Positions 3,088 to 30,170 of a stretch of DNA of 40,575 nt are shown in pieces. Positions within the stretch are counted from its first letter, which is position 1, and the number at the start of each line of letters is the position of its first letter. The stretch spans positions 770,931-811,505 of the forward strand of contig NZ_CXSU01000012.1 of assembly GCF_001403795.1 (NCBI RefSeq). Direction: 5' to 3'. This stretch comes from Jannaschia donghaensis. GTDB lineage: Bacteria; Pseudomonadota; Alphaproteobacteria; Rhodobacterales; Rhodobacteraceae. A program made the translations under genes and the position numbers. A model generated the notes under the pieces. It was given only the letters and a program-made list of their open reading frames with translations, made no database searches and was not told where the DNA came from.

Positions 3088-4507
3088 ATGTCGCCGGTTC
3101 GTTACGATAGCCCATGCGCAAACCGCCCCAATGACGCCCGCGCACGACGATTGGGGCGGAGATATCCTTCATCATCACCATCCCCTGCTGTCCCATGTCG
3201 CGTCGATAGACCTGCATCAGAAACGGCGCGCGGTTTGCCCCCGCCTGCCGCCCCGTGCGATCGTCGAAGATGCGGCGATTGCGCGAAAACGCCGCATTCG
3301 CCTCTGCGTCCAAACCTTGGGGGCGGGAAAACTTGCGATTGTGCGTACCGATATAGCCCGTCCGGTCGCACGGGCAGGTGAAGACGATCCGTTCGTCCAT
3401 ATCCAGCGCCGCTTCGATGATCGGGGGTACGACCCGATCGGTGAATTGCAGGTGTTTGGCCATGTGCTGCTGCGGGTTGGTGCCGGGCAGGGGGCGGTGA
3501 TCGGTGTCGAACAAGGCCTCCATCGTAATCGCGCCCGAAGTCAGACCGTTCTCGAAAGCCTCCGCTATGCTTTGAGCCACGGCCTGGGCATGGGCGATCA
3601 TCGGGGCGTCGGGTCCGTCCTGTTCCACCTCGGCACTGCGCTGCAACAGCCTCTCGCACCGGTCCATCATGTGCGCGGCGCGGGTCCGCGCGTCGCCCAC
3701 GCCGCGTGCGGTCTGCCTGGCTCCGCCCTCGATAACGTCGCAAATGCCGCCGACTTCCGTATCGGCCTGGGCCAAGATTCTCACCGCGCCGTCCATCGCG
3801 TCGATCCGCTTGCGTGCGGCGGCCATCTCCGCCGCAATGGTTCCGACGGTCGTGCTGGTCATCGTCGCCGTCTCAAGCCCCCGTTCGAATTCCGGGGCCA
3901 GTCGTCGGCTGTCGTCGCGCATGGTCCTGGTCCAGTTGCCGAGCGATTCGATCGCCGTCCGTATGCCGTTGGCCGCAGTCGACGTCTTGCGCGACAAGTC
4001 GTTCACCGCCTCCGCCACGACGGCGAATCCCTTACCGGCCTCGCCCGCGCGCGCCGCTTCGATGGATGCATTCACCGCCAAGATGTTAACCTGCCGAGCA
4101 ATCCGCGCGATGTCCGTATTGGACGCCACGATTTCCTTGAGCACACCTTCCAGAACTTCGGTGCGCGGTCCGATCCCGGCCCCCCATTCGGAGAGGTTTT
4201 GATAGCGGGCTCCGTTCTCGCGGATAGAGTCCAATCGTGCCGCAGCTGAATCTTCGGTCGCGCGGGCCGTCTTGCTCAGGTCACCGAACCCGTCGCGCAA
4301 GGCGGCAATCGCGTTGGAGAAATCGTCGGACACCGACCGCAACGTCGCGATCTGATCCAGGTTGGCCTGCGCGTTGCCGTCGATCCCGTCCACGAAGGCC
4401 GCAAGATCGGCCACTAGATACCCCAACGGCGCGATATCTTCTGCAAGGCTGCGTCGTGGCGGGGTCGATCTGGTTGGTATCGGGCGGGTGTGAGCGGTCA
4501 TGTCCAT
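3086..4507 (-). CDS. Soluble methyl-accepting chemotaxis-type protein
   Basis: About 473 residues without a membrane segment. The middle third is a chemoreceptor signalling coiled coil: the hairpin region reads [20 protein letters not shown] followed by [20 protein letters not shown], the conserved MCP tip that binds CheA/CheW. The C-terminal 150 residues form a separate domain with [25 protein letters not shown] and [20 protein letters not shown], a sensory-like module I have seen attached to cytosolic MCP-type proteins, with Cys, His and Asp residues that could bind metal, heme or a small ligand. The ATG at 4507 is chosen; a GTG at 4528 and an ATG at 4501 are alternatives, none with a strong ribosome site. 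It lies 38 bases behind the scaffold-protein gene on the same strand. No che or flagellar gene is nearby, so the pathway is unknown. Confidence 0.8.
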
Positions 4508-4545
4508 TCCGAAAGCGCGGGCCCCCACGGCTTACGACGAACAGA

Positions 4546-5001
4546 TTACCCGCCCGTTAATTCCGACGCGCCCACCTGTTCCATCGCGTCCACCGTCGCG
4601 TCCAGCGCCAACAGGATGGAGGCGTGACGGTTCTTGAATTCGCGCGCGGGCGTCAGCACCTCAAGCGCCTCGAACGGCGCATCCGGGACGGGACCGTCCG
4701 CCTTCAGCATCGCGCGCAACTGGTCGCGCGCGACGCGCACCTCGGTCATGTCGCGCCCGGTCATGGCGGCCCCCGATACTGCGGCCGACGCTTGGCCCAA
4801 GGCGCAGGCCTTCACGTCCTGCGAATACCGCACGATCCGTCCGTCCTCCAGATCCAGCGAAACCGTGACCGTCGATCCGCACAGCGGCGACCGTTTCTTG
4901 ACCGTGACCTGCGGCGCGGCAAGCGGGTCGGTCATCGGCATGTCGGCGGCCAGCGCCAGGATGCGTCCGGAATAGAGCTTGATCAGGTCGCTGTCGGACA
5001 T
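4546..5001 (-). CDS. IscU/SufU-like iron-sulfur scaffold family protein with third Cys replaced
   Basis: The 151-residue product matches the NifU N-terminal/IscU fold. Family members assemble [2Fe-2S] clusters on three cysteines. Cys41 (SPLCGS) and Cys66 (VKACALGQASAA) sit at the first two positions. Where IscU has HCSIL, this protein has HASIL (Ala127), so the third ligand is missing. It may use another ligand, act in delivery rather than assembly, or have a different role. The ATG at 5001 has GAGGAA seven bases upstream. It is divergent from hisI, and no isc or suf genes are visible here. Confidence 0.78.
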   Translation of the reverse strand: MSDSDLIKLYSGRILALAADMPMTDPLAAPQVTVKKRSPLCGSTVTVSLDLEDGRIVRYSQDVKACALGQASAAVSGAAMTGRDMTEVRVARDQLRAMLKADGPVPDAPFEALEVLTPAREFKNRHASILLALDATVDAMEQVGASELTGG

Positions 5002-5068
5002 CGGGCTTTCCTCGTCACCGTCTGATCCTTAGGTAGCGTTCGCAACCCCGGATGCAAAGGTGCGCCTG

Positions 5069-5428
5069 ATGAGCTTTGACCCTGCGACCCTGCGATATGA
5101 CGCCGCTGGCTTGATCCCCTGCATCGCACAGGATTATGCCACGGGGGAGGTGTTGATGATGGCTTGGATGAACGCCGACGCCGTCGCGCGCACCCTGAAG
5201 TCGGGCCGCGTCACATATTGGTCGCGCTCACGTCAGGCGTTCTGGATCAAGGGGGAGACGTCGGGCCATGTCCAAAAACTGATCGATCTGCGCGTCGATT
5301 GCGACCGGGATTGCCTGCTGGCGCGTGTCGATCAGACGGGACCGGCGTGCCACACCAACCGGCGCAGCTGTTTTTATATTGCCGTGCGGAACGGGGACGA
5401 GGTCGAATTGTCCAAACCGATGATATGA
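5069..5428 (+). CDS. hisI: Phosphoribosyl-AMP cyclohydrolase
   Basis: Opens the adenine ring of phosphoribosyl-AMP in the third step of histidine synthesis. The 119-residue product is the HisI-only form, without the HisE pyrophosphohydrolase domain. Conserved motifs are WMNADAVARTLKSGRVTYWSRSR (in two blocks), metal-binding VDCDRDCLL, and ACHTNRRSCFY, whose cysteines bind zinc. The ATG at 5069 is preferred over a GTG at 5060 because AAAGG lies eight bases before it. The gene stands apart from other his genes and converges on the acetyltransferase gene with six bases between the stops. Confidence 0.93.
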   Translation: MSFDPATLRYDAAGLIPCIAQDYATGEVLMMAWMNADAVARTLKSGRVTYWSRSRQAFWIKGETSGHVQKLIDLRVDCDRDCLLARVDQTGPACHTNRRSCFYIAVRNGDEVELSKPMI

Positions 5429-5434
5429 CGCCCG

Positions 5435-5866
5435 TCAAAGCCGTTTGCGGAAGCGCCAAAATGTCGGGGCAGTCCACGCGTAGTCGAGTGCAACATAGGT
5501 GTCTCGGGCGGCCTCGTTGCCGACATGTGCGCCGATGACGACATAGGCGCATCCCCGATCTCGTGCGTCCGCTTCCGCCGCGGCGATCAGGCGGCGGGCA
5601 AGACCCTGCCGGCGGGCGCGCGGTCGCACGAAGACATGATGGAGATCTGCGCCGCGTACGCCTTGCTGGGCCTGCGCGTGCGGGATCAGCAGGACATACC
5701 CGTCCATCGGATCGCCCGCGCCGAACCCCCAGATCCAACCGTCGGCCAGATCGCGGGCAAGGGTATGCGCCGTGGCCGCCGGGACGTCGTCATGATGCGC
5801 TGCCAGGGATTGAACCAGCGGCAACAACGCATCGGCGTCAGAGGGACGGATGGCAAAAATCTTCAT
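5435..5866 (-). CDS. GNAT-family N-acetyltransferase
   Basis: About 143 residues with the GNAT fold. The acetyl-CoA pyrophosphate loop is visible in HHVFVRPRARRQGLARRLI (R-R-Q-G-L-A), followed by the helix AAAEADARDRGCAYVVIGA and the C-terminal N-x-A-x-x-x-Y motif (NEAARDTYVALDY). The acceptor cannot be predicted. The ATG at 5866 is chosen because MKIFAIRPSDADALLPLV is the usual first strand and helix of the fold; an upstream in-frame ATG at 5923 would add 19 atypical residues. The ribosome site is weak. Confidence 0.85.
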   Translation of the reverse strand: MKIFAIRPSDADALLPLVQSLAAHHDDVPAATAHTLARDLADGWIWGFGAGDPMDGYVLLIPHAQAQQGVRGADLHHVFVRPRARRQGLARRLIAAAEADARDRGCAYVVIGAHVGNEAARDTYVALDYAWTAPTFWRFRKRL

Positions 5867-5966
5867 CGTTTCAATTTCGCCCGCGACGGCCTCGTCTGTC
5901 CGCCTCAGGGGGCCACGGTTCAAAAAGTTCCGGGCGCAACCCGTTCCGTCGTGATCTGCTCTTGAA

Positions 5967-5982
5967 CCGTTAGCGCTAACGG
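5967..5982. promoter_or_regulatory. Perfect 16-bp palindrome, probable LacI-family operator for edd-eda
   Basis: CCGTTAGCGCTAACGG is a perfect palindrome centred on the CG of TTAGCGCTAA, the core typical of LacI/GalR-family operators. It lies 28 bases before the edd start and 15 bases before its AGGAGG ribosome site, so a bound repressor would block the promoter or early elongation. A gluconate or 6-phosphogluconate-responsive regulator is the natural guess, but no regulator gene is in the window. Confidence 0.7.
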
Positions 5983-6010
5983 GTCATGTAGTGCACTAGG
6001 AGGATCAGAT

Positions 6011-7816
<1,806 letters not shown>

Positions 7817-9614: not shown

Positions 9615-10972
9615 CCCAATCCGCACCCACGCTGCGCCTGCGCAACTCCCTGACCCGCGGGGTCGAGGATGTCACGCCGCTGGATCCGACGAACATCCGT
9701 CTCTACCTCTGCGGCCCGACCGTCTATGACCGCGCGCATCTTGGCAACGCGCGCAACGTGATCCTGTTCGATCTGCTGTTCCGACTGCTGCGCCACGACC
9801 ACGGGGCGGATCACGTGACCTACGTTCGCAATTTCACCGATGTGGACGACAAGATCATCGCCCGCGCTGCCGAAAGTGGCGAAGACATCGCCGATCTCAC
9901 GGCGCGCACGACAAAGTGGTTCCTCGACGATATGGCCGCTCTCGGGACGCTCACGCCGACCCGTATGCCCCGCGCGACCGATTACATCGCCCAGATGGTC
10001 GAGATGATCGAGGGGCTGATCGCGTCCGGTCATGCCTACCGCGCCGACGGTCACGCGCTGTTTTCCGTTTCGTCCTACGACGGTTACGGCGCGCTGTCGG
10101 GGCGCAGCACCGACGACATGATCGCGGGCGCACGGGTGGAGGTCGCGCCTTACAAGCGCGATCCGATGGATTTCGTCCTCTGGAAGCCGTCGGACGAGGA
10201 TGAACCGGGGTGGGAGACGAGCCTGGGCTACGGTCGCCCCGGCTGGCACATCGAATGCTCGGCCATGGCCAAGGCGCTGTTGGGCCCATCTTTCGATATC
10301 CACGGCGGCGGCAACGACCTGATGTTCCCGCATCACGAGAACGAGCGGGCGCAAAGCTGCTGCGCGGACCCCGACGCCGGTTTCGCATCGGTCTGGCTGC
10401 ACAACGAAATGCTGCTGGTCGAAGGGCGCAAGATGTCCAAGTCCCTGGGCAACTTCTTCACCGTGCGCGACGTGTTGGACAAAGGGGTGCCGGGCGAGGT
10501 CATCCGCTTCGTGTTTCTATCGACGCATTATTCCAAACCGATGGACTGGACCGATCGGAAGGCGGCGGAGGCGGTGGCGACCTTGCGCAAATGGCGCAGC
10601 ATCGCCGCGGACGGAGGCGCGCCGGATCAAGCCGTGCTCGACGCACTTCGCGACGATCTGAATGCGCCGGGTGCCATCGCGGAGCTGCACCGCATCGCCA
10701 AGGCCGGCGACGGCGCGACGCTCAAGGCGTCCGCGGCTCTGCTGGGCCTTCTGGAAGACGACATGGGGGCCTGGGCGGACGGCGGCGATGAGGCTGTGGT
10801 CGAAGCCGTTTTGGCCGCCCGCGTGACCGCGCGCGCCGACAAGGACTGGGCGCGCGCCGATGCATTGCGTGACGGGCTGGTGGCGGCGGGCGTCGTGGTG
10901 ACGGATGGCAAGGGCAGGGGGTGGGAAGCCGGTCCCGGTTTCGACCCCGCCAAGCTGGAGGGGTTGGTGTGA
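9611..10972 (+). CDS. cysS: Cysteinyl-tRNA synthetase
   Basis: Charges tRNA-Cys with cysteine. The 453-residue product is a class I synthetase: zinc-binding Cys34 in YLCGPTVYD, the HIGH-box variant HLGN at 43-46, [10 protein letters not shown] and HHENERAQS supplying further zinc ligands, and KMSKS at 274-278, followed by the DALR-type anticodon-binding domain. The ATG at 9611 has AGGAGA eight bases upstream and gives the usual family start (LRLRNSLTR). A leader region with short ORFs precedes it. Confidence 0.96.
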
Positions 10973-11028
10973 TCACAAACGCGTCCGACGTAGATCACCC
11001 ATGGATCACCCGTAGATCACCCATGGAT
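10971..11028 (+). repeat. GATCACCC repeats in 11-bp phase upstream of cimA
   Basis: GATCACCC occurs at 10993, 11004 and 11015, exactly 11 bases apart, and GATCACA at 10971 (over the cysS stop) is in the same phase at two periods. The 17-base unit GTAGATCACCCATGGAT is repeated perfectly at 10990-11006 and 11012-11028. The array fills the short gap before cimA and ends 12 bases before its ATG, where a ribosome site would be expected but none is evident. Phased repeats fit a protein binding one face of the helix, or an RNA-level site. ATG 11023 to TGA 11043 also encodes a six-residue peptide overlapping the cimA start. Confidence 0.6.
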
Positions 11029-11039
11029 AGTACGTCCAC

Positions 11040-12641
11040 ATGACCGAACGCCTCTACCTCTACGACACGACGCTGCGCGACGGGCAGCAGACGCAGGGCG
11101 TGCTGTTTTCGGCCGCCGAGAAGGTGGAAATCGCGCGGATGCTCGACGATCTGGGCGTCGATCATATCGAAGGCGGCTGGCCCGGCGCCAACCCGACGGA
11201 CAGTGATTTCTTCGCTGCGGCACCCAAGACGTCGGCGACGATGACGGCGTTCGGAATGACGAAACGGACGGGCCGGTCGGCCGAAAACGATGATGTGCTC
11301 GCCGCCGTCGTCAACGCGGGCACACCGGCCGTTTGTCTGGTTGGCAAAACCCATCCGTTCCATGTGCGCACAGCGTTGGGCGTGACGCTGGAAGCCAACC
11401 TCGATAACATCAAGGTCTCCGTCGAACACCTTGTGAAACAAGGAAAAGAGGCTTTGTTCGACTGCGAACATTTCTTCGATGGCTACGACGAAGATCCCGC
11501 TTATGCGCTGGCCTGTGCCCACGCGGCGCGAGACGCCGGGGCCCGCTGGATTGTCCTGTGCGACACCAACGGCGGCACCATGCCGACCCGCATCGCCGAA
11601 ATCGTACGGGCGGTCATCGCATCTGGCGTCCCCGGCGACCACCTTGGAATCCACACGCATAACGACACTGAACAAGCCGTCGCCGGATCGCTGGCCGCCG
11701 TCGATGCCGGGGCCCGGCAGATCCAGGGTACGCTCAACGGTCTGGGGGAACGTTGCGGCAACGCGAACCTGACGGCCCTGATTCCGACTTTGCTGCTCAA
11801 GGAGCCGTATGCCAGCCGATATGCGACCGGGATCGATGCGGAAAACCTGCCGTCGCTTATGAAGGTCTCCCGACGTCTGGACGACATTCTGAACCGCGTG
11901 CCGCGCCGAGAGGCCGCCTATGTCGGCGCTTCGGCTTTTGCGCATAAGGCCGGGTTGCACGCCAGCGCGATCCTCAAGGACCCGACGACCTATGAACACG
12001 TGCCGCCCGACGCGGTGGGCAACGCCCGGATCGTCCCGATGAGCAATCAGGCCGGTCTGTCGAACCTGCGAAAACGGTTGGACGATCTGGGGCTGACAGG
12101 ATCGGACGCGCAGCTGCGTCGCATCCTGGATATCGTCAAAGAACGGGAGGATGCGGGCTATGCCTACGACGTGGCCGCCGCCAGCTTCGAATTGATTGCG
12201 CGGGCCGAATTGGGTCTGTTGACGGAGCCGTTCGAGGTCAAGCGCTACCGCGTCACGGTGGAGCGGCGGAAGAACAAATACGACCGGATGGTCACCGTGT
12301 CCGAGGCGGTCGTGGTCGTGAAGGTCGACGGCGAAAAACGGCTGTCCGTCTCAGAAAGCATGGACGAGACCGGGTCCGATCGCGGGCCGGTCAACGCGCT
12401 GTCCAAGGCGCTTGCCAAGGATCTGGGGCCGTTGCAGGACCGCATTTCCGACATGCGGCTCAAGGATTTCCGCGTACGCATCATGCAGGGAGGGACCGAG
12501 GCCGTGACCCGCGTCATCATCGACCACGAAGACGATGCGGGCCGCCGTTGGTCCACCGTCGGGGTCAGCCCGAACATCGTCGATGCAAGTTTCGAGGCCC
12601 TTCTGGACGCCGTGCGCTGGAAGCTGTGTCAGGCGGACTAG
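11040..12641 (+). CDS. cimA: (R)-citramalate synthase
   Basis: Condenses pyruvate with acetyl-CoA to citramalate, the threonine-independent entry to isoleucine synthesis. The 533-residue product has the catalytic barrel (LYLYDTTLRDGQQTQGVLFS, IEGGWPGANPTD, HTHNDTEQAVAGSLAAVDAG, LNGLGERCGNANL), the linker HKAGLHASAILKD and a C-terminal LeuA-type regulatory domain (about 400-530) for feedback control, presumably by isoleucine. The length and the Gln-Gln after LRDG match the CimA branch rather than 2-isopropylmalate or homocitrate synthase. The ATG at 11040 lacks a clear ribosome site and sits just after the phased repeats. Confidence 0.92.
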   Translation: MTERLYLYDTTLRDGQQTQGVLFSAAEKVEIARMLDDLGVDHIEGGWPGANPTDSDFFAAAPKTSATMTAFGMTKRTGRSAENDDVLAAVVNAGTPAVCLVGKTHPFHVRTALGVTLEANLDNIKVSVEHLVKQGKEALFDCEHFFDGYDEDPAYALACAHAARDAGARWIVLCDTNGGTMPTRIAEIVRAVIASGVPGDHLGIHTHNDTEQAVAGSLAAVDAGARQIQGTLNGLGERCGNANLTALIPTLLLKEPYASRYATGIDAENLPSLMKVSRRLDDILNRVPRREAAYVGASAFAHKAGLHASAILKDPTTYEHVPPDAVGNARIVPMSNQAGLSNLRKRLDDLGLTGSDAQLRRILDIVKEREDAGYAYDVAAASFELIARAELGLLTEPFEVKRYRVTVERRKNKYDRMVTVSEAVVVVKVDGEKRLSVSESMDETGSDRGPVNALSKALAKDLGPLQDRISDMRLKDFRVRIMQGGTEAVTRVIIDHEDDAGRRWSTVGVSPNIVDASFEALLDAVRWKLCQAD

Positions 12642-12651
12642 GTTGCCCGTC

Positions 12652-13407
12652 ATGGAAATGCACGACGATATCACGGCCTGCGCCGCACAGGTGCAACGCG
12701 GCGACCCGGAGCGGTTTCGCGCCGTCATGGCGACCCCTGTGGCGCTGCGCCGCATGCTCTTCCCGCTCTATGCTTTCAACCTGGAAGTCGCCCGCGCGCC
12801 ATGGGTCACGAAGGAGCCGTTGATCGCCGAGATGCGCCTGCAATGGTGGCGCGACGCGTTGGGTGAAATCGCGAATGGCGGCCAGGTTCGGCGGCATGAA
12901 GTCGTGACGCCCCTTGCCGCGATCCTGGATGGGCGGGGCGCACGCGACCTTGATGACCTGGTGGAGGCGCGACGGGCCGATATCGAAGGGACGCCGCCCG
13001 CGTCCACGGATGATCTGACCCGCTACATCGACCGGACGGCAGGCACGCTTTTGTGGACGGCGGCGCGATTGGCGGGGGCGACCGACGCGCCTGCAATCCG
13101 GGATGCCGGTCTGGCGCAGGGGCTGGCTAGCTTCCTTTCGGCCGTGCCCGACCTTGTAGACAAGGCGCGCAATCCTCTTCCGCCCGGTGAGCCGCATGAC
13201 ATGATTTCGGGCTTGGCGACCATCGGGCTGGCGGCGCTGGACCGGGCCAAAGCCGCCGGGATCGCGAAATCCGCACGGCCCGTCCTTCTGGTGCTGAGCG
13301 ATACGCGCGTTCGACTGCGCGCCTTTGCCGATCACCCGGGCCAGACACCGCAGATCAACCCCGCGCTCAGCCGTCTGCGCCTTGGGTGGAACGCCCTGCG
13401 CGCGTGA
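12652..13407 (+). CDS. Squalene/phytoene synthase-fold protein, NDUFAF6-like
   Basis: A 251-residue all-helical protein of the squalene/phytoene synthase superfamily. Active members have two Asp-rich motifs binding diphosphate through magnesium. Here the region of the first motif reads YAFNLEVARAP, with no Asp pair, followed by EMRLQWWRDALGEI. That pattern is close to mitochondrial NDUFAF6, a complex I assembly factor whose catalytic residues are lost. I therefore call it a non-enzymatic superfamily member, possibly an assembly factor, rather than a carotenoid or squalene enzyme. It starts ten bases after cimA, probably in the same transcript. Confidence 0.7.
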   Translation: MEMHDDITACAAQVQRGDPERFRAVMATPVALRRMLFPLYAFNLEVARAPWVTKEPLIAEMRLQWWRDALGEIANGGQVRRHEVVTPLAAILDGRGARDLDDLVEARRADIEGTPPASTDDLTRYIDRTAGTLLWTAARLAGATDAPAIRDAGLAQGLASFLSAVPDLVDKARNPLPPGEPHDMISGLATIGLAALDRAKAAGIAKSARPVLLVLSDTRVRLRAFADHPGQTPQINPALSRLRLGWNALRA

Positions 13408-21548: not shown

Positions 21549-23939
21549 CTATGCCGGACTAAACGGAGACCTCTCCGCGTGCTTTCCGCTGAGCGATGAC
21601 TGAAGCGACCGCACGATTTCAGCGACATCAATTTGCGTCGATCTGGACTTCGTAAGCGAGGCGATCACGCGTTCGGATGGGGCGAGATTGGTGTCTGTGC
21701 CAGCAAACACGATGACTTTCGTAACTGGCGGCAGTGAGGGCAACAGATCGAAGCCGGACCCGTCCGGCATTTCGATGTCGAGGATGACCAGATCGAATGT
21801 CTGGCGCGCGAGCGAGTCTCGCGCTTCGGCCAGCGATCGCGACCGGACGATCGACGCGGAATATCCGACCGCTTCACCGACAAGCTCCAGCGTGTCGCTG
21901 TCATCGTCGATATGAAGGATTCTAAGGCGATCATCCTCGACCTTTCCGATCGCCCGACGCAACGCATCGACTGCGCTTTGCCCGTCCCCGACTTGCTCGA
22001 TCCATTCTGTTCCTTCTGACCCCCTAAGGCATTCAGGGACCGCTCCGGCCGGGGACACGACCGTTACAGGCAGGGAAAGTTCGGACAGCTGATCGACCGT
22101 TCCATCTAGGGCCGCCGCATCGACCAGGACGGCGCTGTGCCAGCCCCGCTCCGCGATCCTTGCGGCAGATCTGAAATCCGGTGAGAGATCGCTCGCAAAT
22201 CCTTCCTTCTCGAGGGCCCGTCCAATCCATTTCGTCACGTCCGAGTCGTCGCTGCAGATCAGGACGCGGGATCGGTCGATGCGGCAGTCGGGCGTGGCAG
22301 TGTGGGACCCGGCCTGAAACTCGGGCAAGCTGACATGGAAGCGGGCTCCGAAATCCCTGGCACGATCGAACCCGATCGTGCCTCCCAACTGAGTTACGAT
22401 TTCGCGCGAGATGTGCAGGCCAAGTCCCGTGCCCCCCTTTGCGCGCTTATCGGACGAATCCGATTGTTCGAACCTGCCAAAGATTCGATCTTCAAAATCG
22501 ACTGGAATGCCAGGACCGTCATCCTGTACGAAGATGAGCACGTCATCACCGACACGATATGTTCCCACAACGACGGTTCCGTTGTCCGGCGAGAATTTGA
22601 CGGCATTCGACAACAGGTTCCGCAAGACTTGAAGGAAACGGCCGGCATCCACGTTGATCGTCGCTTCCGGCAGATCGTCGACAAGGACGAGCGATACGTT
22701 CTTTTCTCTCATGAAGTTGACGTTCGATGAGATGACTTGTTCGAGAAGCGGGCGCAGGGGTTGGACTTCGAATTTGAAGGCGATGGCACCGGACGAAATC
22801 TTCTCGATGTCCAGAATGTCGTTGATCAGCTCGACAAGCCGATCACAGTTCGATTGGGCAATCGTCAGGAGCCGTGAGACATTGGCCGGGAAATCGTACA
22901 ATTTTCCCGAATTTATCAGGCCCAGAGATCCTTTGATCGACGTCAGGGGGGTGCGAAGTTCATGGCTGACGGTCGATATGAAGCGGTTCTTCGCCTCTGC
23001 CGCGGCTCTTTCTTCGGTTATGTCGTGAGCGGAGGTGATGATACCGACGAACTGACCGTGTTTGTCGCGGAGCGGTGTCTGAAGGACTGACAGCCATTTC
23101 TGCAGGCCTTCGGTTGTCGTTCTCGGCTGATAAAACGTCACCGATCTCCCGGAGCGAAGATCTTCGAGTGTCTGATGCCACGGAATTGGCCCGTCATCGA
23201 CGGGTTGCTTCTCCAGCGTGTCGAGCGAAGCGCTTGTGTCCGCTTCATTTATCAGCGCGTCAGTCGCCGGGTTTGCGACCAGATATTTACCTTCGAAATC
23301 CCTGACATTGAGCGCGTAGGGCAGCTGTTGGACGACCTGCCGGTAGATCCGGTTGTCGCGCATCAACCGTATGCGATTGTCCGCCCGGATAAGAAGAAAA
23401 CCGATGACAAGTGTCGATACTGTCAGCGCGGCGATCAGGGACGGTGCCGTCTCGACCAATAGGTTCCATCGCATCTCCGCTGGGATCGCCATGTAACTCG
23501 CCAAGTTTGCGACGACCACGCCGATCACGCACAAAACAAGGCTGTTGAGGGTTGTCTGTTCCTCGCGGGCGCGGAAGTGAATGAAGAGGCCGACGACCGT
23601 CGACAGGATGATTGAAACCACGCCGGGCGACACGCCCGAGCCGCCCATGTCCAGTCGAATGAAAACAGCCGTGCTCGCCGCTATCACCGCAGCCGGGAGA
23701 CCGCCGAAGAGGGCGGCGAGCGCCACGAGCGACGCCCTGAGGTCGAAGCGAAACCCGGGAGACGTCTCCATCGCCATCTGCATCGAAAAGGCGGTTGCGA
23801 TCGCCAGAACCGCTCCGATGAGGATAGACCTATGGATTGCCGCAAGCGACTGGGTCCACTCGGATATCGTGTCCCAGAGCATTGCCAAGATCGCGACCAA
23901 TGCGAAGTTGGTAATCAGGGACCGCATCAGTTCAGTCAT
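21549..23939 (-). CDS. Hybrid sensor histidine kinase with multi-span membrane sensor
   Basis: A 796-residue membrane kinase. Residues 6-185 contain five or six transmembrane helices resembling 5TM-LYT sensors (LytS/YhcK type). Then come a PAS domain (about 195-310), HisKA with His326 in STVSHELRTPLTS, an ATPase domain (N445 in NLLSNAVKF, DDGPG 473-477, GTGLGL 503-508), and two receivers. The first (about 558-665) retains an Asp at 607 but lacks the conserved Lys. The second (about 672-785) is intact, with Asp721 in DLVILDIEMPDG and Lys764. Phosphate would pass from His326 to Asp721 and then need an Hpt protein, which is encoded at 28831-29181. AGGT lies seven bases before the ATG. The lone receiver gene is 70 bases upstream on the same strand. 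Confidence 0.88.
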   Translation of the reverse strand: MTELMRSLITNFALVAILAMLWDTISEWTQSLAAIHRSILIGAVLAIATAFSMQMAMETSPGFRFDLRASLVALAALFGGLPAAVIAASTAVFIRLDMGGSGVSPGVVSIILSTVVGLFIHFRAREEQTTLNSLVLCVIGVVVANLASYMAIPAEMRWNLLVETAPSLIAALTVSTLVIGFLLIRADNRIRLMRDNRIYRQVVQQLPYALNVRDFEGKYLVANPATDALINEADTSASLDTLEKQPVDDGPIPWHQTLEDLRSGRSVTFYQPRTTTEGLQKWLSVLQTPLRDKHGQFVGIITSAHDITEERAAAEAKNRFISTVSHELRTPLTSIKGSLGLINSGKLYDFPANVSRLLTIAQSNCDRLVELINDILDIEKISSGAIAFKFEVQPLRPLLEQVISSNVNFMREKNVSLVLVDDLPEATINVDAGRFLQVLRNLLSNAVKFSPDNGTVVVGTYRVGDDVLIFVQDDGPGIPVDFEDRIFGRFEQSDSSDKRAKGGTGLGLHISREIVTQLGGTIGFDRARDFGARFHVSLPEFQAGSHTATPDCRIDRSRVLICSDDSDVTKWIGRALEKEGFASDLSPDFRSAARIAERGWHSAVLVDAAALDGTVDQLSELSLPVTVVSPAGAVPECLRGSEGTEWIEQVGDGQSAVDALRRAIGKVEDDRLRILHIDDDSDTLELVGEAVGYSASIVRSRSLAEARDSLARQTFDLVILDIEMPDGSGFDLLPSLPPVTKVIVFAGTDTNLAPSERVIASLTKSRSTQIDVAEIVRSLQSSLSGKHAERSPFSPA

Positions 23940-24009
23940 AATGTACCTCGATATTCTTTCGACTGAAATTGGCCCCGCGCTCTGATCCGTGGCACAAAAA
24001 GGTGTGGGA

Positions 24010-24405
24010 TCAAGCGGCGTGCGCCGTACTTTTCCAGAGGTCCAGAACCTGGGAGGAGAGCGTCATTGGGTCGAATGGTTTCGCGATGACACCAACGGCC
24101 CCGATCGCGATCAAGCCCTCGATCTCGTCTCGCCGGGCCTTCGCGGTCATGAAAGCCTTTGGTACAGGCCGGATGGCATCGATCCTGTTCAACCGCTCGA
24201 ACACCTCGGGGCCGTCCATTTCGGGCATCATGACGTCGAGGAGAACCATATCGGGCTGGAAGGCGGTGATCCGGGCCAAGGCTTCCGGTCCGGACGCATA
24301 GACGGCCACGTCGTAGCCACCGATCTGCGTCAAGGCCAACTCTGTTAGCTCGCGGATGTCCGCGTCATCCTCGACATAGGCGATACGCTTCAGCTGGCCG
24401 TCCAT
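24010..24405 (-). CDS. Single-domain response regulator (CheY-like)
   Basis: A 131-residue lone receiver without an output domain. The acidic pocket is VEDDAD, the phosphoacceptor is Asp57 (MVLLDVMMPEMDG), followed by the Thr switch (FMTAKA) and Lys in VIAKPFDP. Such proteins work by protein contact or as phosphate shuttles. GAGGAG lies seven bases before the ATG at 24405; an in-frame start at 24420 is less likely. It sits between the polysaccharide operon (161 bases upstream) and the hybrid kinase gene, so it is a likely intermediate of the same relay. Confidence 0.9.
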   Translation of the reverse strand: MDGQLKRIAYVEDDADIRELTELALTQIGGYDVAVYASGPEALARITAFQPDMVLLDVMMPEMDGPEVFERLNRIDAIRPVPKAFMTAKARRDEIEGLIAIGAVGVIAKPFDPMTLSSQVLDLWKSTAHAA

Positions 24406-24566
24406 CCGCGTGCTCCTCAACCCGACTTCGAAGATCGGCCTAGCAGACAGGTGTGACCAAACCTTTTACGGGCGGACCGGATCGAGGGTCTCAACACCAT
24501 GAATATGAGGAGTTTCGATGATTTGGCGAAGCCCAATCATGCCCGCAAGCTGGAAGGAACGACACG

Positions 24567-25667
24567 TTATTTCTCCGGCAGTCCGGCGAGATCTTGTGGT
24601 GACCCTGGATCGTCGCCGGACAGGCCGGGAATATATCGGGCGGCGGCAACGATGGCTTCGCGCCAATCCGGCAGTCGAGACTCCCGGGCCACGCGGACGG
24701 CGGAAAACGTGGGAAACCCGCCGTCTTCGTCCAACGCGATGCGTGCCAGTTGGCGGCGCTCATCCACGCGAAATGCGTTGCGGAATTCGTCGGGAATGGA
24801 CTGCGACACCGACAGGATGCGGTCGATGGTCCCAACTTGCGTCAGCGTCCCGGCGGACACGGTGATCCGGTCACCTTGCCGGATGCGGAACAGGTAATTC
24901 GTCGGAAGATAGGCGAGGACGTAAGGTTTACCGGATAGGACCGTCAGAATGGGTTCCCCCGGATTGAAAACTTCTCCGGGTGCCGGCACGCTGTCCCCGA
25001 TCACTCCGGAAGTGCCCGCGCGGTGAAAGCCGCCGTCATAGAGCGTCGCAAGATCGTCGAGAGCATCCCGCGCCTGCTGGCGGGCCACGCCGAGCGCCTC
25101 CAATTCCTGTCCGAGGCCTTCGGCGCGCGACACCAAGGTGACGAGCTCGACGTTCGCAAGATGCGCCTGATCGACGACACCCTCCCGCCGGGTTGCTGTG
25201 ACAAGGCCGGAAGTGATCGAAGCGTCGAGCGTGTCGCGGGTGCGATCCAGTGCCTCCGCCCTGTCGCGCGCAAGAGGCATGAGACGTTCCGAAAGATCCT
25301 TCCGAGAGCGAAGCTCAGCTTCGCGCTCGGCCAGTTCGGCGTCGCGCATCGACAAATCGGCCAGACGGTCGAGCACCTCGACCGATGACGCCTGCAGCAG
25401 CGGATCGCCTTCCCGCACGGATTGTCCGGCGACGATATCGACGCTGTTCACCCGGATCAGGGTCGTCGCGGCGACCACGCTTCGATCCCGAAGGACCAGT
25501 CCGTCGGCCCGCAGGAAAACCAGGTCGCCGGCCACGTAGTCCAGCATCGCAGCCGCAAACATCGCCAGAAGAGCGAGGTAGATTCCGCGGTCCCATCTGC
25601 GGCGGGGGCGGGTCGCTTCGCGGTCGAAGCTGTCGGAGCGCGGGCGGCGTTTCAGTTTCGTGATCAT
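24567..25667 (-). CDS. HlyD-like periplasmic adaptor of a polysaccharide synthase
   Basis: A 366-residue protein: a basic cytosolic tail, one transmembrane helix (about 28-46, GIYLALLAMFAAAMLDYVAG), a biotinyl-lipoyl-like strand pair (VNSVDIVAGQSVREGDPLLQ), a long coiled-coil hairpin (about 100-205) and a beta-barrel region (NPGEPILTVLSGKPYVLAYL and after). This is the membrane-fusion-protein layout. Similar proteins pair with glycosyltransferases for polymer export (Alg44 in alginate, BgsB in rhizobial mixed-linkage glucan). Its ATG is four bases after the glycosyltransferase stop, strong evidence that they work together. The ATG at 25667 is chosen over one at 25757, which lies inside the upstream gene. 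Confidence 0.82.
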   Translation of the reverse strand: MITKLKRRPRSDSFDREATRPRRRWDRGIYLALLAMFAAAMLDYVAGDLVFLRADGLVLRDRSVVAATTLIRVNSVDIVAGQSVREGDPLLQASSVEVLDRLADLSMRDAELAEREAELRSRKDLSERLMPLARDRAEALDRTRDTLDASITSGLVTATRREGVVDQAHLANVELVTLVSRAEGLGQELEALGVARQQARDALDDLATLYDGGFHRAGTSGVIGDSVPAPGEVFNPGEPILTVLSGKPYVLAYLPTNYLFRIRQGDRITVSAGTLTQVGTIDRILSVSQSIPDEFRNAFRVDERRQLARIALDEDGGFPTFSAVRVARESRLPDWREAIVAAARYIPGLSGDDPGSPQDLAGLPEK

Positions 25668-25671
25668 CTTG

Positions 25672-26925
25672 TCACCCTCTGACTTTGTGGACTTTGTCGG
25701 GAACGTAGCTGTCTGCGTAGGACGATCTGAAAATCCACTCGTCCAGATAGGCGACAAGTCGGACGAACCTCATGTAGACCCCGTAGAAAACGCTGTATCC
25801 CAAGAGATACGGCAACAGCGCTACGCCACTGATTTTCGGCGTCGCGGATGCGGCCAGAAGGAAGACGAGGAGGTCCAGCATCAGCAAGCCCAGTTGCGCC
25901 GCCAGCAGAACCGTGAAGGCAAAGCTGCCGTAGGTGTGAAACAGCCAGATCAAGTAGAATGGCATCGCGGCGGCGGCGATCACGTTGAATAGCAGGAATT
26001 CCAGCTCGTGGAGCAGCTCGCTCCAGCGGAATCGCCGCGAAAAAGGGTTAAGCATGTCGGCATGCTTGCGATAGCGCAGCCGGACCGCATCGCGTTCCCA
26101 GCGGAACCTTTGCCGCACCAGAACGGCGCGGGTTTCGGGAACATCTGTATAGCATTGGGCATCGGCGGCGAACCGCACCTTCCAGCCCGACCTGCGCAGG
26201 CGGATCGTGAGGTCCAGATCTTCACCGCCGCCCGCGTCCAGACCGCCGGTCATTTCATAGGCATCCCGGCGAAAGGCCCCGAATGCGCCCGAAATGCAGG
26301 TCACCTGGCCCACGCGGTCCGCCGCCTGCTTTCCAAGCGAAATCGAGATCATGTATTCGATTCCCTGGAAGGCCGCGATCAGACTGCGGTGCATGTTGCG
26401 TGGAAGGATGGATCCGCACACCGCAGCGACACGATCGTCGGCGAAGGGACGCAACAGATTTCGGATCGCGTGTCGATCGAACGAGCAGTCGCAATCCACG
26501 TTCACGATCACGTCGCCCGTGCATAGGCGGGCGGCCATGTTCGTGCCGGCGGATTTGCCGGATCGCAACTCGGTGGTGTGCGCCGCGTCGATAAGGTTGG
26601 CGCGCAGCATCCGGGATATCGTTGCAGGCATCCCGTCGGTCGAGCCGTCGCTGACGACCACGATCTCGTCCGGAACGCGGCTTTGTTCGCGCAGGGCGGC
26701 GACGCATTTCTCGATCGAGGTTTCCTCGCTGTGGCCCGCGATGACGACGCTGACACGGCCTGGGTAGGGACGCTCGTCCTCGCGAATTCGCGGAAGGAAA
26801 GCCGTTGCGGCGAACAGCAGCAGGTAGCGCGGAACCTCGAAAATCATGACGAACCAGTAAAGGCGCAGAAGGCTCTCACCGCTTTGCGCAAAAAGATAGT
26901 CCGCCGCTTCGCTGAACGGGCTCAT
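25672..26925 (-). CDS. Processive family 2 glycosyltransferase (exopolysaccharide synthase)
   Basis: A 417-residue membrane protein with one N-terminal helix (about 20-45) and three or four C-terminal helices (about 305-390). The GT-A catalytic set of processive beta-glycan synthases is complete: Asp93 (VSDGSTDG), D144-C-D146 (VNVDCDCS), the acceptor-site Glu235-Asp236 (AGGGEDLDL) and Q272-R-F-R-W276. This is the signature of cellulose, hyaluronan, alginate and mixed-linkage glucan synthases. There is no PilZ domain, so any nucleotide control would come from partners or the short C-terminal tail (SSYADSYVPDKVHKVRG). The ATG overlaps the stop of the upstream receiver/zinc-ribbon gene (ATGA). 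The product is a bacterial glycan of unknown type. Confidence 0.87.
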   Translation of the reverse strand: MSPFSEAADYLFAQSGESLLRLYWFVMIFEVPRYLLLFAATAFLPRIREDERPYPGRVSVVIAGHSEETSIEKCVAALREQSRVPDEIVVVSDGSTDGMPATISRMLRANLIDAAHTTELRSGKSAGTNMAARLCTGDVIVNVDCDCSFDRHAIRNLLRPFADDRVAAVCGSILPRNMHRSLIAAFQGIEYMISISLGKQAADRVGQVTCISGAFGAFRRDAYEMTGGLDAGGGEDLDLTIRLRRSGWKVRFAADAQCYTDVPETRAVLVRQRFRWERDAVRLRYRKHADMLNPFSRRFRWSELLHELEFLLFNVIAAAAMPFYLIWLFHTYGSFAFTVLLAAQLGLLMLDLLVFLLAASATPKISGVALLPYLLGYSVFYGVYMRFVRLVAYLDEWIFRSSYADSYVPDKVHKVRG

Positions 26926-28634
26926 CCGGCCAGATCCTCGGGCCCGAACAGATCGAACCGCGCGCCCACGTCCAGACGCAGAGATCCGTCGGCCCCTTGC
27001 CTGGCGGTTTTGAGAACGGGTTGAATGGATGCCTTGTCGGCATTCGGCATCAGGACGAAATCATGCGTCGAGCCAGCCGTCACGATTGTCCCGGAGGGAA
27101 GGTTCTGCTGAAAGGTCTCCAACCAGAGACGCCGGGTGTCGCGGGCCTGCCGTGCGCCGTGGTCGGCTTGGACAGCTCCGAGATTGTCGTAAGTCACATA
27201 GCCCAGAACGAACGGTGTTCGATCGTCGTTGAAGCGGCTTGCCGCCCTGTTCAGGGCGACGACAAGGTCGAGCGGCAGGTCAGCAAGGCGCAGCGATTGC
27301 CGTGTCAGCCCGAGAAAGGAACGCCCGGCCTTCAAATAGGCGAGCCCCTGATCCGTGATCCGGCCTGAGAGGATGTCGCGTGTCGGAACCGCGTCCGCCA
27401 TCGTTCGGGTCGAACAGTCGACGCAGACGAACGCGACATTCGGTTCGGACGTCGTCTTGGAGCAACCTCGACAGCTTACCATAAGGCCTGGCCGGTCATA
27501 ATCGCGACCGAAGTGCGCCAGCGTCCGACGGCATTTCGGGCAGGTCAGTTCATCCCCGTGTCGGAAGTCGCTTTCCGGGCCCTGATAAGCGCATCGGAAG
27601 TGATGAAGGTAGCTCTCCTCTTCAAGATGCGGGGACTGGCAGTCTGGACATTCCTCGCGCACGAGAAGTCGGGCCGATTGACACGACGGGCAATGATGCA
27701 CGCGTTCCGAAAACTCCGTCGCCAGGAACCCTTCCGCGACAAGTTTGGTCATGGGTTGAAGAAGGTCGTCGGTGTGGGCGAGGAGGTTCCACGCGATCAG
27801 GCTCCGGTCCGCTCCACTCCGCCTGGGGTCGATCGTCCCTCCGGCCAAGTGGATACGGGCGAGAAGCCGGTCCGCCGGGTCAGTGCTCCGCACGATGTCG
27901 GAGTGAAGCTCGGCCCGGCGATCGTGGAAGTGATCTATGATCTGGGCGATACGGTCCGTATCGCCCAGACGCAAGGCCGTGCCGTCCATGTCGGCTGACG
28001 GGCCCATCGCGCCCGTCATGTCGATAATGGGCAGAAGGTTCGCACCGGGCGTGCGCCACAGTGCGGGCAAATCGTCGGTCGAATTCACCAAGACGGCGTC
28101 GATGCCCTGCAGTCCCGAAAGCCGTGTCTGCGATTGGACGTCGGGCCAATTGAAGTAGGCGAACGGCAGATCCTCGATCACGCTGGTTCTCTCGCCTGGC
28201 GCGCGTACCATCCGTGCGGGGGCCGATGGCTTGGCCCGTGGCGTCTCGACCAATTCGCAGATCAAATCGATGTCGAGCGGCTTGGGTACGATGCGGTCGA
28301 ACACCTCGCAGTTGGCCTTGTCCGCCAGCAACCCGCGCACGTCGCCGGTAATCGCGACGAAGGTGGGCCGAGCACCGCCGGGATGATCGGAAAGATACTG
28401 TTTCACGACCTCCAAACCGGTGATGTCCGGAAGATGGAAATCCGTCAGGACGATATCGAATGTCCGATCCCGAAGTTGTGCAAGCGCGGAGGCACCGTCG
28501 TCCGCAATGGCAACGGAATGACCGGCCTGTGTCAGCATGAGTTCGACGATATCCTGTGTCACCGAACTGTCTTCTACCAACAGAACGCTGCGGGCGTTGA
28601 CGTGATTCTTTTCTGTCGTTTCCAAGGTGTCCAA
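26922..28634 (-). CDS. Receiver protein with CxxC zinc-ribbon cluster (TackOD1-like) and degenerate GGDEF-like end
   Basis: About 570 residues. An N-terminal receiver is intact (Asp in IVLTDFHLPDITG near residue 65, Lys in IVPKPLD near 118). A middle region (about 150-310) is followed by five CxxC pairs (CPSC, CPDC, CPKC, CRGC, CVDC; about 315-407) with YLHHFRCAYQG and LAHFGRDYDRPG between them, which I recognise as like the TackOD1 output domain. The last 100 residues (LGYVTYDNLGAVQADHGARQ, TAGSTHDFVLMP) look like a nucleotidyl-cyclase fold in which STHDF replaces GGDEF, so no diguanylate cyclase activity is expected. There is no ATG: TTG at 28634 has GGAG six bases upstream, while TTG at 28646 is possible. 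It heads the operon with the glycosyltransferase (ATGA overlap) and is probably its regulator. Confidence 0.78.
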   Translation of the reverse strand: MDTLETTEKNHVNARSVLLVEDSSVTQDIVELMLTQAGHSVAIADDGASALAQLRDRTFDIVLTDFHLPDITGLEVVKQYLSDHPGGARPTFVAITGDVRGLLADKANCEVFDRIVPKPLDIDLICELVETPRAKPSAPARMVRAPGERTSVIEDLPFAYFNWPDVQSQTRLSGLQGIDAVLVNSTDDLPALWRTPGANLLPIIDMTGAMGPSADMDGTALRLGDTDRIAQIIDHFHDRRAELHSDIVRSTDPADRLLARIHLAGGTIDPRRSGADRSLIAWNLLAHTDDLLQPMTKLVAEGFLATEFSERVHHCPSCQSARLLVREECPDCQSPHLEEESYLHHFRCAYQGPESDFRHGDELTCPKCRRTLAHFGRDYDRPGLMVSCRGCSKTTSEPNVAFVCVDCSTRTMADAVPTRDILSGRITDQGLAYLKAGRSFLGLTRQSLRLADLPLDLVVALNRAASRFNDDRTPFVLGYVTYDNLGAVQADHGARQARDTRRLWLETFQQNLPSGTIVTAGSTHDFVLMPNADKASIQPVLKTARQGADGSLRLDVGARFDLFGPEDLAG

Positions 28635-28717
28635 ACCGGTCTCCAACGATGCGTCCGGTTGGGCCTAGAATAAATTCGTTAATGGATCGTTGTTCAGGAG
28701 CGGTCCAACACAGGCCG

Positions 28718-28751
28718 CCGGTCGTTTTCGGCGGGCCTTCGATACGACCGG
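28718..28751. promoter_or_regulatory. Gapped inverted repeat in the divergent promoter of the polysaccharide locus
   Basis: CCGGTCGT (28718-28725) and ACGACCGG (28744-28751) are perfect inverted copies separated by 18 bases, in the middle of the 184-base gap between the divergent receiver/zinc-ribbon gene and the Hpt-galE pair. The position fits an operator serving both directions. A hairpin in the leader of the Hpt transcript is the alternative. No convincing -10/-35 pair was identified in this gap. Confidence 0.4.
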
Positions 28752-28830
28752 TTATCTTCACCAAGTCTTAGGGACTGGCCACCTATAGCCATCGGACGGG
28801 AACGCCCGTGTCGATTGGGGGGAAGAGAGC

Positions 28831-29181
28831 GTGCGGGAACAGATCATCGCCCTTCTGGAACGTCATTGCCGCACGATCACCCAAGAGGCCGCCTTGATCG
28901 GCCAGAGCATCGGCAAGGTGACGATTGGAATGGAGCGTGAAGATTTGGAGCCCAGCGTGAGACATGTACATAAGATCAAGGGAAGCAGCGGCTCTCTCGG
29001 ATTTCCGTCCGTCAGCCGCGCTGCGCAGGCGTTGGAGGACCGGTTGCGCGGCATCGGCCGCGTCGACGGGACCGCATTGGCCCAGATCGAAGATATGAAC
29101 GCGCGCCTTCAGGAGGCCGTCTGCCGCATCACGCCGGAAACATCGACGCTTCACCAGAAATTCAAGGAGGCGGACAAATGA
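28831..29181 (+). CDS. Hpt-domain phosphotransfer protein
   Basis: A 116-residue helical protein with the Hpt signature around His47 (HVHKIKGSSGSLGF), the histidine that carries phosphate between receivers. There is no other domain. The GTG start at 28831 is the only reasonable one, with GGAAGAG a few bases upstream; no in-frame ATG precedes the fold. Its stop overlaps the galE start (ATGA). Because the neighbouring kinase ends in a receiver and two further receivers are encoded nearby, this protein supplies the missing step of a kinase-receiver-Hpt-receiver relay. Confidence 0.88.
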   Translation: MREQIIALLERHCRTITQEAALIGQSIGKVTIGMEREDLEPSVRHVHKIKGSSGSLGFPSVSRAAQALEDRLRGIGRVDGTALAQIEDMNARLQEAVCRITPETSTLHQKFKEADK

Positions 29182-30170
29182 TCCTCGTAACCGGTGGCGC
29201 AGGGTATATCGGCAGCCATTTCGTCCTGGCTTGCATTGAGGATGGCCGGGAGATCGTCGTTCTAGACGATCTGTCGACGGGGTTCCGCGACGCAGTTCCG
29301 CCGGGCGTCCCTTTTGTTCGGGGCGATTTCGGCGACTGGGCGGTCCTGCAACGGATCATCTGGCAATATGACATTTCCAGCGTCGTCCACTTTGCCGGAT
29401 CTGTCGTCGTCTCCGATTCGATAGCCGATCCCCTTGGCTACTATGAGACGAATACGACCAAGACACGCACGCTTCTGGCACATTGCGTCGCCTCCGGGAT
29501 CAATGAGGTCGTCTTTTCCTCGACGGCCGCTGTTTACGGCCCGCCCGTGACCGAGACCGTCATGGAACTCGCACCGACTAATCCGATCAGTCCTTACGGC
29601 CGATCCAAGCTCATGGTCGAATGGATGCTGGCCGACGCAGCCGCTGCGACGGATCTTCGGTATGTCGCGTTGCGTTATTTCAACGTCGCAGGGGCCGACC
29701 CCTTGGGACGCGCAGGTTTGCGCTCAAGAAACGCGACCCATCTTCTCAAGCGGATCTGCGAAGTCGCTGTCGGCGACCGCAGCCATCTCGACATCTACGG
29801 AAACGACTATCACACGCCGGACGGCAGCTGCATTCGGGACTTCATCCACGTCAGCGATCTGGCGCAGGCTCATCTGAGTGCTCTCGACCACCTTCGGGTG
29901 ACGGATCACAGTGTGATCCTGAACTGCGGCTACGGCCAGGGCGTGTCGGTTCTGGAAGCAGTCCAGGCCATATCCGGGCTGATCGGAAGGGACCTTCCGA
30001 TCAGGATCTGCGATCGCAGGCCGGGGGACATACCCGCCATCGTCTCGGATACGACCCTGATGCAGAAAACGCTGGATTGGTCGCCGCGGTTCAAGGATCT
30101 GACGCACCTGCTCGATACCGCTCTGAGCTATGAACGTCAGGAGTCCGCGAGCCGTCTTTCGGTCGCTTGA
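29178..30170 (+). CDS. galE: UDP-glucose 4-epimerase
   Basis: Interconverts UDP-glucose and UDP-galactose with bound NAD+. The 330-residue product is an extended short-chain dehydrogenase: NAD-binding GGAGYIGSH at 6-14, LDDLSTG, VVHFAGS, FSSTAAVYG, catalytic Tyr-Lys in SPYGRSK, RYFNVAGADP and RDFIHVSDLAQAH. AAGGAGG at 29164-29170 lies seven bases before the ATG. Coupling with the Hpt gene and divergence from the glycosyltransferase operon suggest it supplies sugar nucleotide for the polysaccharide. A housekeeping copy may exist elsewhere. Confidence 0.92.
   Translation: MILVTGGAGYIGSHFVLACIEDGREIVVLDDLSTGFRDAVPPGVPFVRGDFGDWAVLQRIIWQYDISSVVHFAGSVVVSDSIADPLGYYETNTTKTRTLLAHCVASGINEVVFSSTAAVYGPPVTETVMELAPTNPISPYGRSKLMVEWMLADAAAATDLRYVALRYFNVAGADPLGRAGLRSRNATHLLKRICEVAVGDRSHLDIYGNDYHTPDGSCIRDFIHVSDLAQAHLSALDHLRVTDHSVILNCGYGQGVSVLEAVQAISGLIGRDLPIRICDRRPGDIPAIVSDTTLMQKTLDWSPRFKDLTHLLDTALSYERQESASRLSVA

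Follow-up and report, generated by a model that had tools for sequence, protein, structure and literature searches.

An Mxd-type exopolysaccharide locus of Jannaschia donghaensis with a receiver-fused MxdA homologue and adjoining phosphorelay genes

We analyzed a 40,575-nucleotide stretch of the genome of Jannaschia donghaensis (the window) and focused on an exopolysaccharide locus whose first gene encodes a homologue of MxdA, part of the Mxd polysaccharide machinery with which Shewanella oneidensis builds biofilms. The minus strand of the locus is transcribed in the order MxdA-like protein, GT2 synthase, HlyD-like adaptor, lone receiver and hybrid histidine kinase, and a histidine phosphotransfer (Hpt) gene and galE, which share 4 bases, lie divergently on the plus strand (Table 1). 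An earlier annotation prepared from the letters of the window (the sequence-only reading) had described these GT2, adaptor, kinase, receiver, Hpt and galE genes, including the receiver at the end of the kinase, and the coordinates and Pfam matches agreed with it. It had also placed the first three genes in one overlapping operon. The MxdA-like and GT2 genes do overlap by 4 bases, and this is the sole overlap; the HlyD gene most likely starts at the ATG at 25667, which matches the starts of its relatives, so that 4 bases separate it from the GT2 gene.

Table 1 Genes and domains of the locus, numbered within the window.
Feature	Positions	Strand	Details
MxdA-like regulator, 574 amino acids	26922..28646	-	PF00072 and PF18551; TTG start uncertain
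Receiver domain of MxdA-like protein	28227..28598	-	residues 17-140; phospho-acceptor Asp69
TackOD1 (Thaumarchaeal output domain 1), cysteine-rich	27360..27890	-	residues 253-429; PF18551, E 3.3e-56
Predicted GGDEF-fold C-terminal domain	26925..27275	-	residues 458-574; without GGDEF motif, without I-site RxxD
GT2 membrane polysaccharide synthase, MxdB/PgaC-like	25672..26925	-	PF13641, E 2.2e-25
HlyD-like periplasmic adaptor, MxdC-like	24567..25667	-	PF13437, E 5.6e-7; operon position of MxdC
Stand-alone receiver	24010..24420	-	Asp62; PF00072, E 4.9e-23
Hybrid histidine kinase	21549..23939	-	5TM-LYT sensor, PAS, HisKA, HATPase, receiver-like stretch, receiver (Pfam)
Hpt phosphotransfer protein	28831..29181	+	His47; PF01627, E 3.9e-13
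galE, UDP-glucose 4-epimerase	29178..30170	+	TIGR01179, 384 bits (cut-off 262)

The hybrid kinase, Hpt and output receiver of a His-Asp-His-Asp phosphorelay were all found with intact phospho-residues. His326 and Asp721 of the kinase and His47 of the Hpt protein are as the sequence-only reading had given them, and its two further receivers carry Asp62 (lone receiver) and Asp69 (MxdA-like protein). That the parts are present once, as stated there, is true of the locus but not of the genome, where we detected three further Hpt matches, one of them below the cut-off. Ahead of its end receiver the kinase contains a second receiver-like stretch (approximately residues 558-668), which by eye has no clear Lys and gave no Pfam match. 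The Pfam matches of the locus proteins included no DNA-binding output domain, in agreement with the earlier description, and no PilZ domain at E up to 1.

Catalytic motifs of the GT2 protein are kept (DCD at 144, GGEDLD at 233 and RQRFRW at 271). Its best NCBIfam match was the poly-N-acetylglucosamine synthase model TIGR03937 (PgaC/IcaA), at 124.7 bits far under the equivalog cut-off of 422.3, and a Pga-type operon was rejected on this score. Eighteen matches among solved structures represent several kinds of glycosyltransferase and do not settle the polymer, and the HlyD protein matched no solved structure at E 0.1. The galE product likely makes a sugar donor or precursor for the polymer; of the 63 loci mapped, 10 have galE no more than 6 kb from the TackOD1 gene, a mild hint that the polymer may contain galactose or N-acetylgalactosamine.

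In the MxdA-like protein, a linker region joins the receiver to TackOD1, which scored 190.3 bits with PF18551 (Pfam gathering score, 32); this model matched one protein in the window genome. A search with the predicted structure of the whole protein (predicted local distance difference test, 86.9; predicted template modelling score, 0.50) returned matches that were all receivers and left the C-terminus uninformed, and in a solved-structure search (profile A1) the best 60 of 277 matches covered the receiver stretch alone. We modelled the C-terminal domain separately and searched with this model, according to which the domain is predicted to have a GGDEF fold, although PF00990 gave no match in the protein at E up to 1. 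The hairpin that forms the active site of GGDEF domains reads GSTHDF, matching neither GGDEF nor GGEEF, and P and T occupy the columns where the RxxD motif of the I-site has R and D. An active diguanylate cyclase was rejected, given that the active-site motif is absent. The protein had been called a receiver/zinc-ribbon protein: the receiver stands and the zinc ribbon corresponds to TackOD1, and the C-terminal GGDEF fold had been missed.

We took Shewanella mxdABC to be an operon of a GGDEF-like, a GT2 and an HlyD gene, and then tested this against genomes. A search of 97 genomes of one gammaproteobacterial genus gave 15 above the PF18551 cut-off. Five parts of mxd promoter primers of S. oneidensis MR-1 (taken from PMC3691769) all matched exactly upstream of the TackOD1 gene in one genome (G1163); L118 was the one locus among the other 14 scanned to match any, with two of the five parts and at most one mismatch. 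Because all five parts match beside this TackOD1 gene, MxdA of MR-1 is a protein of TackOD1 and a degenerate GGDEF domain, followed by GT2 and HlyD, and the core of the window is therefore an mxdABC homologue. The window and MR-1 proteins share 34% identity over 134 amino acids in TackOD1 (E 7e-22) and 31% over 439 amino acids between the window GT2 and MxdB (E 8e-47). For the HlyD proteins the link consists of profile and operon position, with no direct BLAST match at 1e-3. Both loci thus encode a TackOD1 and GGDEF-fold protein, then GT2 and HlyD, on a single strand. They differ at the I-site for cyclic diguanylate (c-di-GMP), which is intact in MR-1 MxdA (RVTD) and absent from the window protein. 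A string NVDEF in MxdA (L136:9879-11267), which the literature has taken for the GGDEF-like motif, lies within the GGDEF fold in its first strand (QMLNVDEFLRAEG) and not in the active-site hairpin.

Published work describes MxdA as having a degenerated GGDEF domain (PMC3409153) and reports loss of aggregation in mxdA and mxdB mutants (PMC3691769). Binding of c-di-GMP by MxdA and its interaction with the receiver protein CheY3 are attributed to Gambari 2019, and surface biofilm is stated to require phosphorylated CheY3, in PMC7666153 and PMC11395469. The reported contact between the homologue MxdA and CheY3 makes post-translational control of the window synthase more likely by analogy. The sequence-only reading had proposed such control through the receiver/zinc-ribbon protein, and the homology lends weight to that part; the c-di-GMP-effector relative had escaped it. 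It knew of synthase operons under c-di-GMP control but not of this arrangement, which does not, however, amount to a new kind of system: the locus appears to be an Mxd machine that has been rewired, and the relative that has been studied is an effector of c-di-GMP.

A tree and an I-site alignment were prepared from 69 TackOD1 proteins, of which 13 carry an N-terminal receiver and 56 do not. These rows leave out L033 and L053 (330 amino acids or fewer), L037 and L040 (identical to L013 and L039, respectively) and L015 (the same as L023); they contain the longer stretches L132-L135 in place of L094, L096, L097 and L099, and, from the genus search, only L136 and L137, the longer stretches of two genomes, beside L104 and L107 from the phylum sample described below. 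The receiver-fused proteins, from Rhodobacterales and Hyphomicrobiales, cluster in a single group (support 98/91, recovered in 98% of bootstrap trees), which adjoins receiver-less alphaproteobacterial proteins, most of them with RxxD. The Asp and Lys of the receiver are kept, by eye, in all 13. Both R and D of RxxD are present in 48 of the 56 receiver-less proteins versus none of the 13 receiver-fused proteins, 12 of which are readable there, L024 being frame-broken ahead of the I-site. This loss suggests that phosphorylation may have taken over from c-di-GMP in the receiver-fused proteins.

The Hpt gene showed the same division: all 13 receiver-fused loci have one at most approximately 6 kb from the TackOD1 gene, and none of the 56 receiver-less loci has one in its stretch. 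A first Hpt model, drawn from Hpt proteins of the clade itself, overlooked the Hpt of L024 and was hence uneven; it matched none of the 56 receiver-less loci. A broader model built from 26 sequences (20 Hpt stretches from elsewhere and 6 of the clade) gave matches at E under 1 in all 13 receiver-fused loci and in none of the 56 receiver-less loci. At L024, the broader model matched both a small protein (E 0.0018) and the neighbouring kinase (E 5.9e-7), which is of kinase-receiver-Hpt type with an Hpt domain of its own. In an Hpt-family search of 30 genomes, all of which contain other kinds of Hpt genes, the matches listed included the locus Hpt of all 5 receiver-fused genomes; in the 25 receiver-less ones, none of those listed came closer than 10 kb to the TackOD1 gene, the nearest being approximately 47 kb away (G787). 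By itself this listing carries little weight. A search with the window Hpt protein in 26 genomes of the taxonomic family matched all 5 that have a receiver-TackOD1 protein and 1 of the 21 others.

A histidine kinase was present in the stretch of 11 of the 13 receiver-fused loci (not L014 or L020), as was a separate small receiver (not L020 or L024). Gene order, strand and fusions vary: L025 has the relative of the lone receiver fused to Hpt, with further receivers following; the Hpt gene of L116 comes after HlyD; and the kinase lies upstream or downstream. That the relay parts stay near despite this variation is support independent of the clade count. Since the cluster recurs in related genomes, it is more than chance, and a locus unique to the window genome was rejected. 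The sequence-only reading had named loss of this neighbourhood in related genomes as the outcome that would count against it, and the neighbourhood is conserved. The kinase sensors are of different types (5TM-LYT in the window, L016, L017 and L115; CHASE or MASE1 in L022, L024 and L116) and have been swapped among the receiver-fused loci. In L016, from a relative of the same genus, the locus is adjoined by an HWE kinase of bacteriophytochrome type (3708-6410) whose receiver match falls under the cut-off, a hint that light may be the input in that case.

On this evidence, we consider it probable, without great confidence, that the locus encodes an Mxd-type exopolysaccharide machine in which a phosphorelay has replaced c-di-GMP as the input of the activator. 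The membrane hybrid kinase would autophosphorylate on His326, and the phosphate would pass to Asp721 of its own receiver, to His47 of Hpt and then to Asp69 of the MxdA-like receiver; the lone receiver would be a branch, a sink or another possible carrier. On phosphorylation, the TackOD1/dead-GGDEF body would change, contact the GT2 synthase at the membrane and switch polymer synthesis, for which galE would supply the sugar donor. Our best reading of the comparisons is that the phosphorelay, instead of or beside c-di-GMP, gates an Mxd-type synthase post-translationally. A broader proposal is that an alphaproteobacterial clade turned an MxdA-type c-di-GMP effector into a response regulator, by losing the I-site, gaining a receiver and drawing in an Hpt/hybrid-kinase relay, such that the synthase became gated directly by phosphorylation, independently of c-di-GMP and of transcription and TackOD1 serves to couple signalling to GT2; this we advance tentatively, as a close call on which we lean slightly to the negative side.

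Several observations weigh against these proposals. Because the receiver-fused set is one clade, the gain of the receiver, the loss of RxxD and the gain of Hpt amount to about one evolutionary event, not 13. RxxD is also missing in eight receiver-less proteins (L013, L031, L041, L046, L056, L058, L060 and L101), and its loss does not exclude binding of c-di-GMP elsewhere. The small Hpt protein of L024, at 22.6 bits under the Pfam cut-off of 24.6, is a weak candidate without the usual Lys, L026 is a receiver-fused locus without an adjoining GT2 gene, and the accessible text of PMC7666153 does not demonstrate that the CheY3-MxdA contact itself requires phosphorylation. The stretches of L014 and L020 have no kinase, and kinases also occur in 14 of the 56 receiver-less loci. 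A search of 25 other genomes gave no close relative of the sensor part of the window kinase (identity of 30% at most), and only weak matches in genomes both with and without a receiver-TackOD1 protein. The lone receiver is matched at E 1e-15 or better in 4 of the 5 genomes that encode such a protein and in 9 of the 21 that do not. Finally, three genomes without one carry Hpt/receiver pairs elsewhere: G002 and G011 have a kinase, lone receiver and Hpt beside a receiver protein of 329-350 amino acids, and G071 has an adjacent Hpt/receiver pair apart from its TackOD1 gene.

The relay and c-di-GMP might both act, with the MxdA-like protein as an AND gate that binds c-di-GMP at a changed site in the GGDEF fold or in the TackOD1 body, or with the synthase itself as the binding site. 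Such dual control is left open by four other GGDEF matches in the window genome and by GGDEF proteins within the stretches of L021, L022, L024 and L116, both of which also count against a purely phosphorelay-driven switch, and it would fit the retention of the GGDEF fold in the predicted model, the joining of c-di-GMP and CheY3 by MxdA itself (PMC7666153) and Sinorhizobium BgsA, which responds to c-di-GMP without a predictable binding domain (PMC5567048). With the I-site motif missing in all 12 readable receiver-fused proteins and PilZ absent from the matches of the locus proteins, we judge dual control unlikely, though it deserves attention.

In a second alternative, the relay would mainly feed another output through Hpt, by way of the lone receiver or other regulators, and the fused receiver would be served by a different kinase or act as a sink. 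Relatives of the lone receiver in genomes without the synthase led us to reject it as a dedicated part, and the kinase is not exclusive to the locus either. Because Hpt/receiver pairs lie elsewhere in genomes without a receiver-TackOD1 protein, crosstalk is possible; comparable sets of kinase, receiver and Hpt can serve other outputs, and the synthase thus has no exclusive hold on the relay parts. At L138 (7641-9599) and L139 (4238-10645), in two family genomes lacking a receiver-TackOD1 protein, such sets accompany a different receiver protein of 329-350 amino acids whose C-terminus by eye resembles another degenerate GGDEF domain, with no Pfam match, possibly pointing to a wider theme of relays leading to dead GGDEF domains. 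The kinase-less stretches of L014 and L020 and the three further Hpt matches in the window genome also speak for another output. The Hpt counts speak the other way, both for proximity to the TackOD1 gene and for relatives of the window Hpt in genomes with and without the fused protein: the Hpt gene tracks the synthase and the lone receiver does not, and we regard a separate output as quite improbable.

That the cluster reflects the inheritance of a mobile block in which relay and synthase are functionally unlinked would accord with the sporadic distribution of TackOD1 in the order and with two plasmid-borne copies, and is very hard to reconcile with a linkage retained among relatives in Rhodobacterales and Hyphomicrobiales despite changes of order and fusions and with the absence of Hpt from all 56 receiver-less stretches.

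The proposed rewiring of an Mxd-type machine by a phosphorelay can be set against known systems. Like mxdABCD of MR-1, the locus has the order MxdA, GT2, HlyD and an activator tied to a receiver (CheY3 in MR-1). In contrast to mxdABC, the part of that system covered by the comparison, the locus has its receiver fused to the MxdA homologue, no RxxD and, next to the core, genes for Hpt, a hybrid kinase and a lone receiver. In PelD and other degenerate-GGDEF receptors, a dead GGDEF fold regulates a polysaccharide synthase; PelD, unlike the window protein, keeps the I-site. The mixed-linkage glucan synthase BgsA/BgsB of Sinorhizobium pairs a GT2 with an HlyD-like partner, and partner switching also regulates it; we know of no TackOD1 protein in its operon, for which no search was made. 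It resembles the window in its GT2 synthase, with BgsA activated by c-di-GMP as noted above (PMC5567048). The receiver-TackOD1 pair itself has been reported from Thaumarchaeota, with obscure function, and TackOD1 proteins there from type IV pilus loci, a differing context (PMC5847659). Searches of one open-access library yielded no account of a receiver-fused MxdA, of mxdA in alphaproteobacteria or of a degenerate GGDEF domain combined with exopolysaccharide, glycosyltransferase and HlyD; for 'exopolysaccharide synthase' with phosphorelay, Hpt or receiver domain, the phrase was absent in the best 15 of 197 results. If the rewiring proposal is correct, TackOD1 would couple signalling proteins to a membrane GT2 synthase, and a c-di-GMP effector could become a phosphorelay output while the synthase is kept, which suggests a natural experiment on a change of switch. 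The fusion of receiver and MxdA homologue in the window fits the interaction of a free CheY protein with MxdA in Shewanella, which here becomes testable in one protein.

TackOD1, obscure in function, also gains context as the core of MxdA and as a domain found mostly with a GT2-HlyD pair in the sampled Pseudomonadota loci. A scan of named genomes, seeded with relatives of the window and thus biased towards its type, gave 41 loci; a same-strand GT2 gene adjoins the TackOD1 gene in 40 of them and an HlyD gene is present in 39 (L027 and L053 lie on contigs of just 3.7 and 3.0 kb). At the GT2 exception, L026 of Rhodomicrobium (9899-12814), a receiver-TackOD1 gene is followed directly by HlyD, and no GT2 was found in the stretch. 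Samples drawn with the family model from the order, class and phylum, with the own genome excluded, gave a GT2 neighbour in 24 of 28 loci above the Pfam cut-off (5/5, 4/8 and 15/15, the last in 14 genomes), and all five order loci have both GT2 and HlyD. Matches below the cut-off (two, six and three, respectively) were not counted as loci. TackOD1 is uncommon in the sampled genomes: with the own genome included, 6 of 390 order, 9 of 385 class and 15 of 398 phylum genomes have it above the cut-off. Two records (L023/L015 and L037/L013) occur in both the named scan and the order sample, and more overlap between unnamed and named samples is possible. The stretches examined for neighbours vary in length, and the contigs of L027, L053, L112, L133 and L134 end early.

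Some loci depart from this pattern. The four class loci without a GT2 neighbour, L098, L133, L134 and L135, form a separate alphaproteobacterial TackOD1 branch that keeps RxxD and has no same-strand GT2 neighbour, an absence that is uncertain for L134, whose contig stops 1.1 kb past the TackOD1 gene. Pseudomonas-type loci have one extra gene between GT2 and HlyD, which in L035 (12570-14705) is an open reading frame of 711 amino acids whose outer-membrane efflux match is weak, at a sub-cut-off 18.1 bits, and in L055 (12078-13058) one of 326 amino acids with no Pfam match. Three Rhodobacterales loci (L013, L037 and L033) contain a TackOD1-GT2-HlyD-galE operon of gammaproteobacterial type (the L013 GT2 is 60% identical to MxdB) and no relay, which suggests acquisition by horizontal transfer. 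A transposase-like open reading frame (by eye) lies approximately 1 kb from the L013 operon. L013 sits on a long branch of the TackOD1 tree, from which L033 was left out. A plasmid search gave 113 records, and many of the 40 listed match through the receiver alone. TackOD1 proteins on Plesiomonas and Aeromonas plasmids (H10, H14 and H15) are annotated as 'diguanylate cyclase', a label that is probably wrong if the degenerate motif is common to them.

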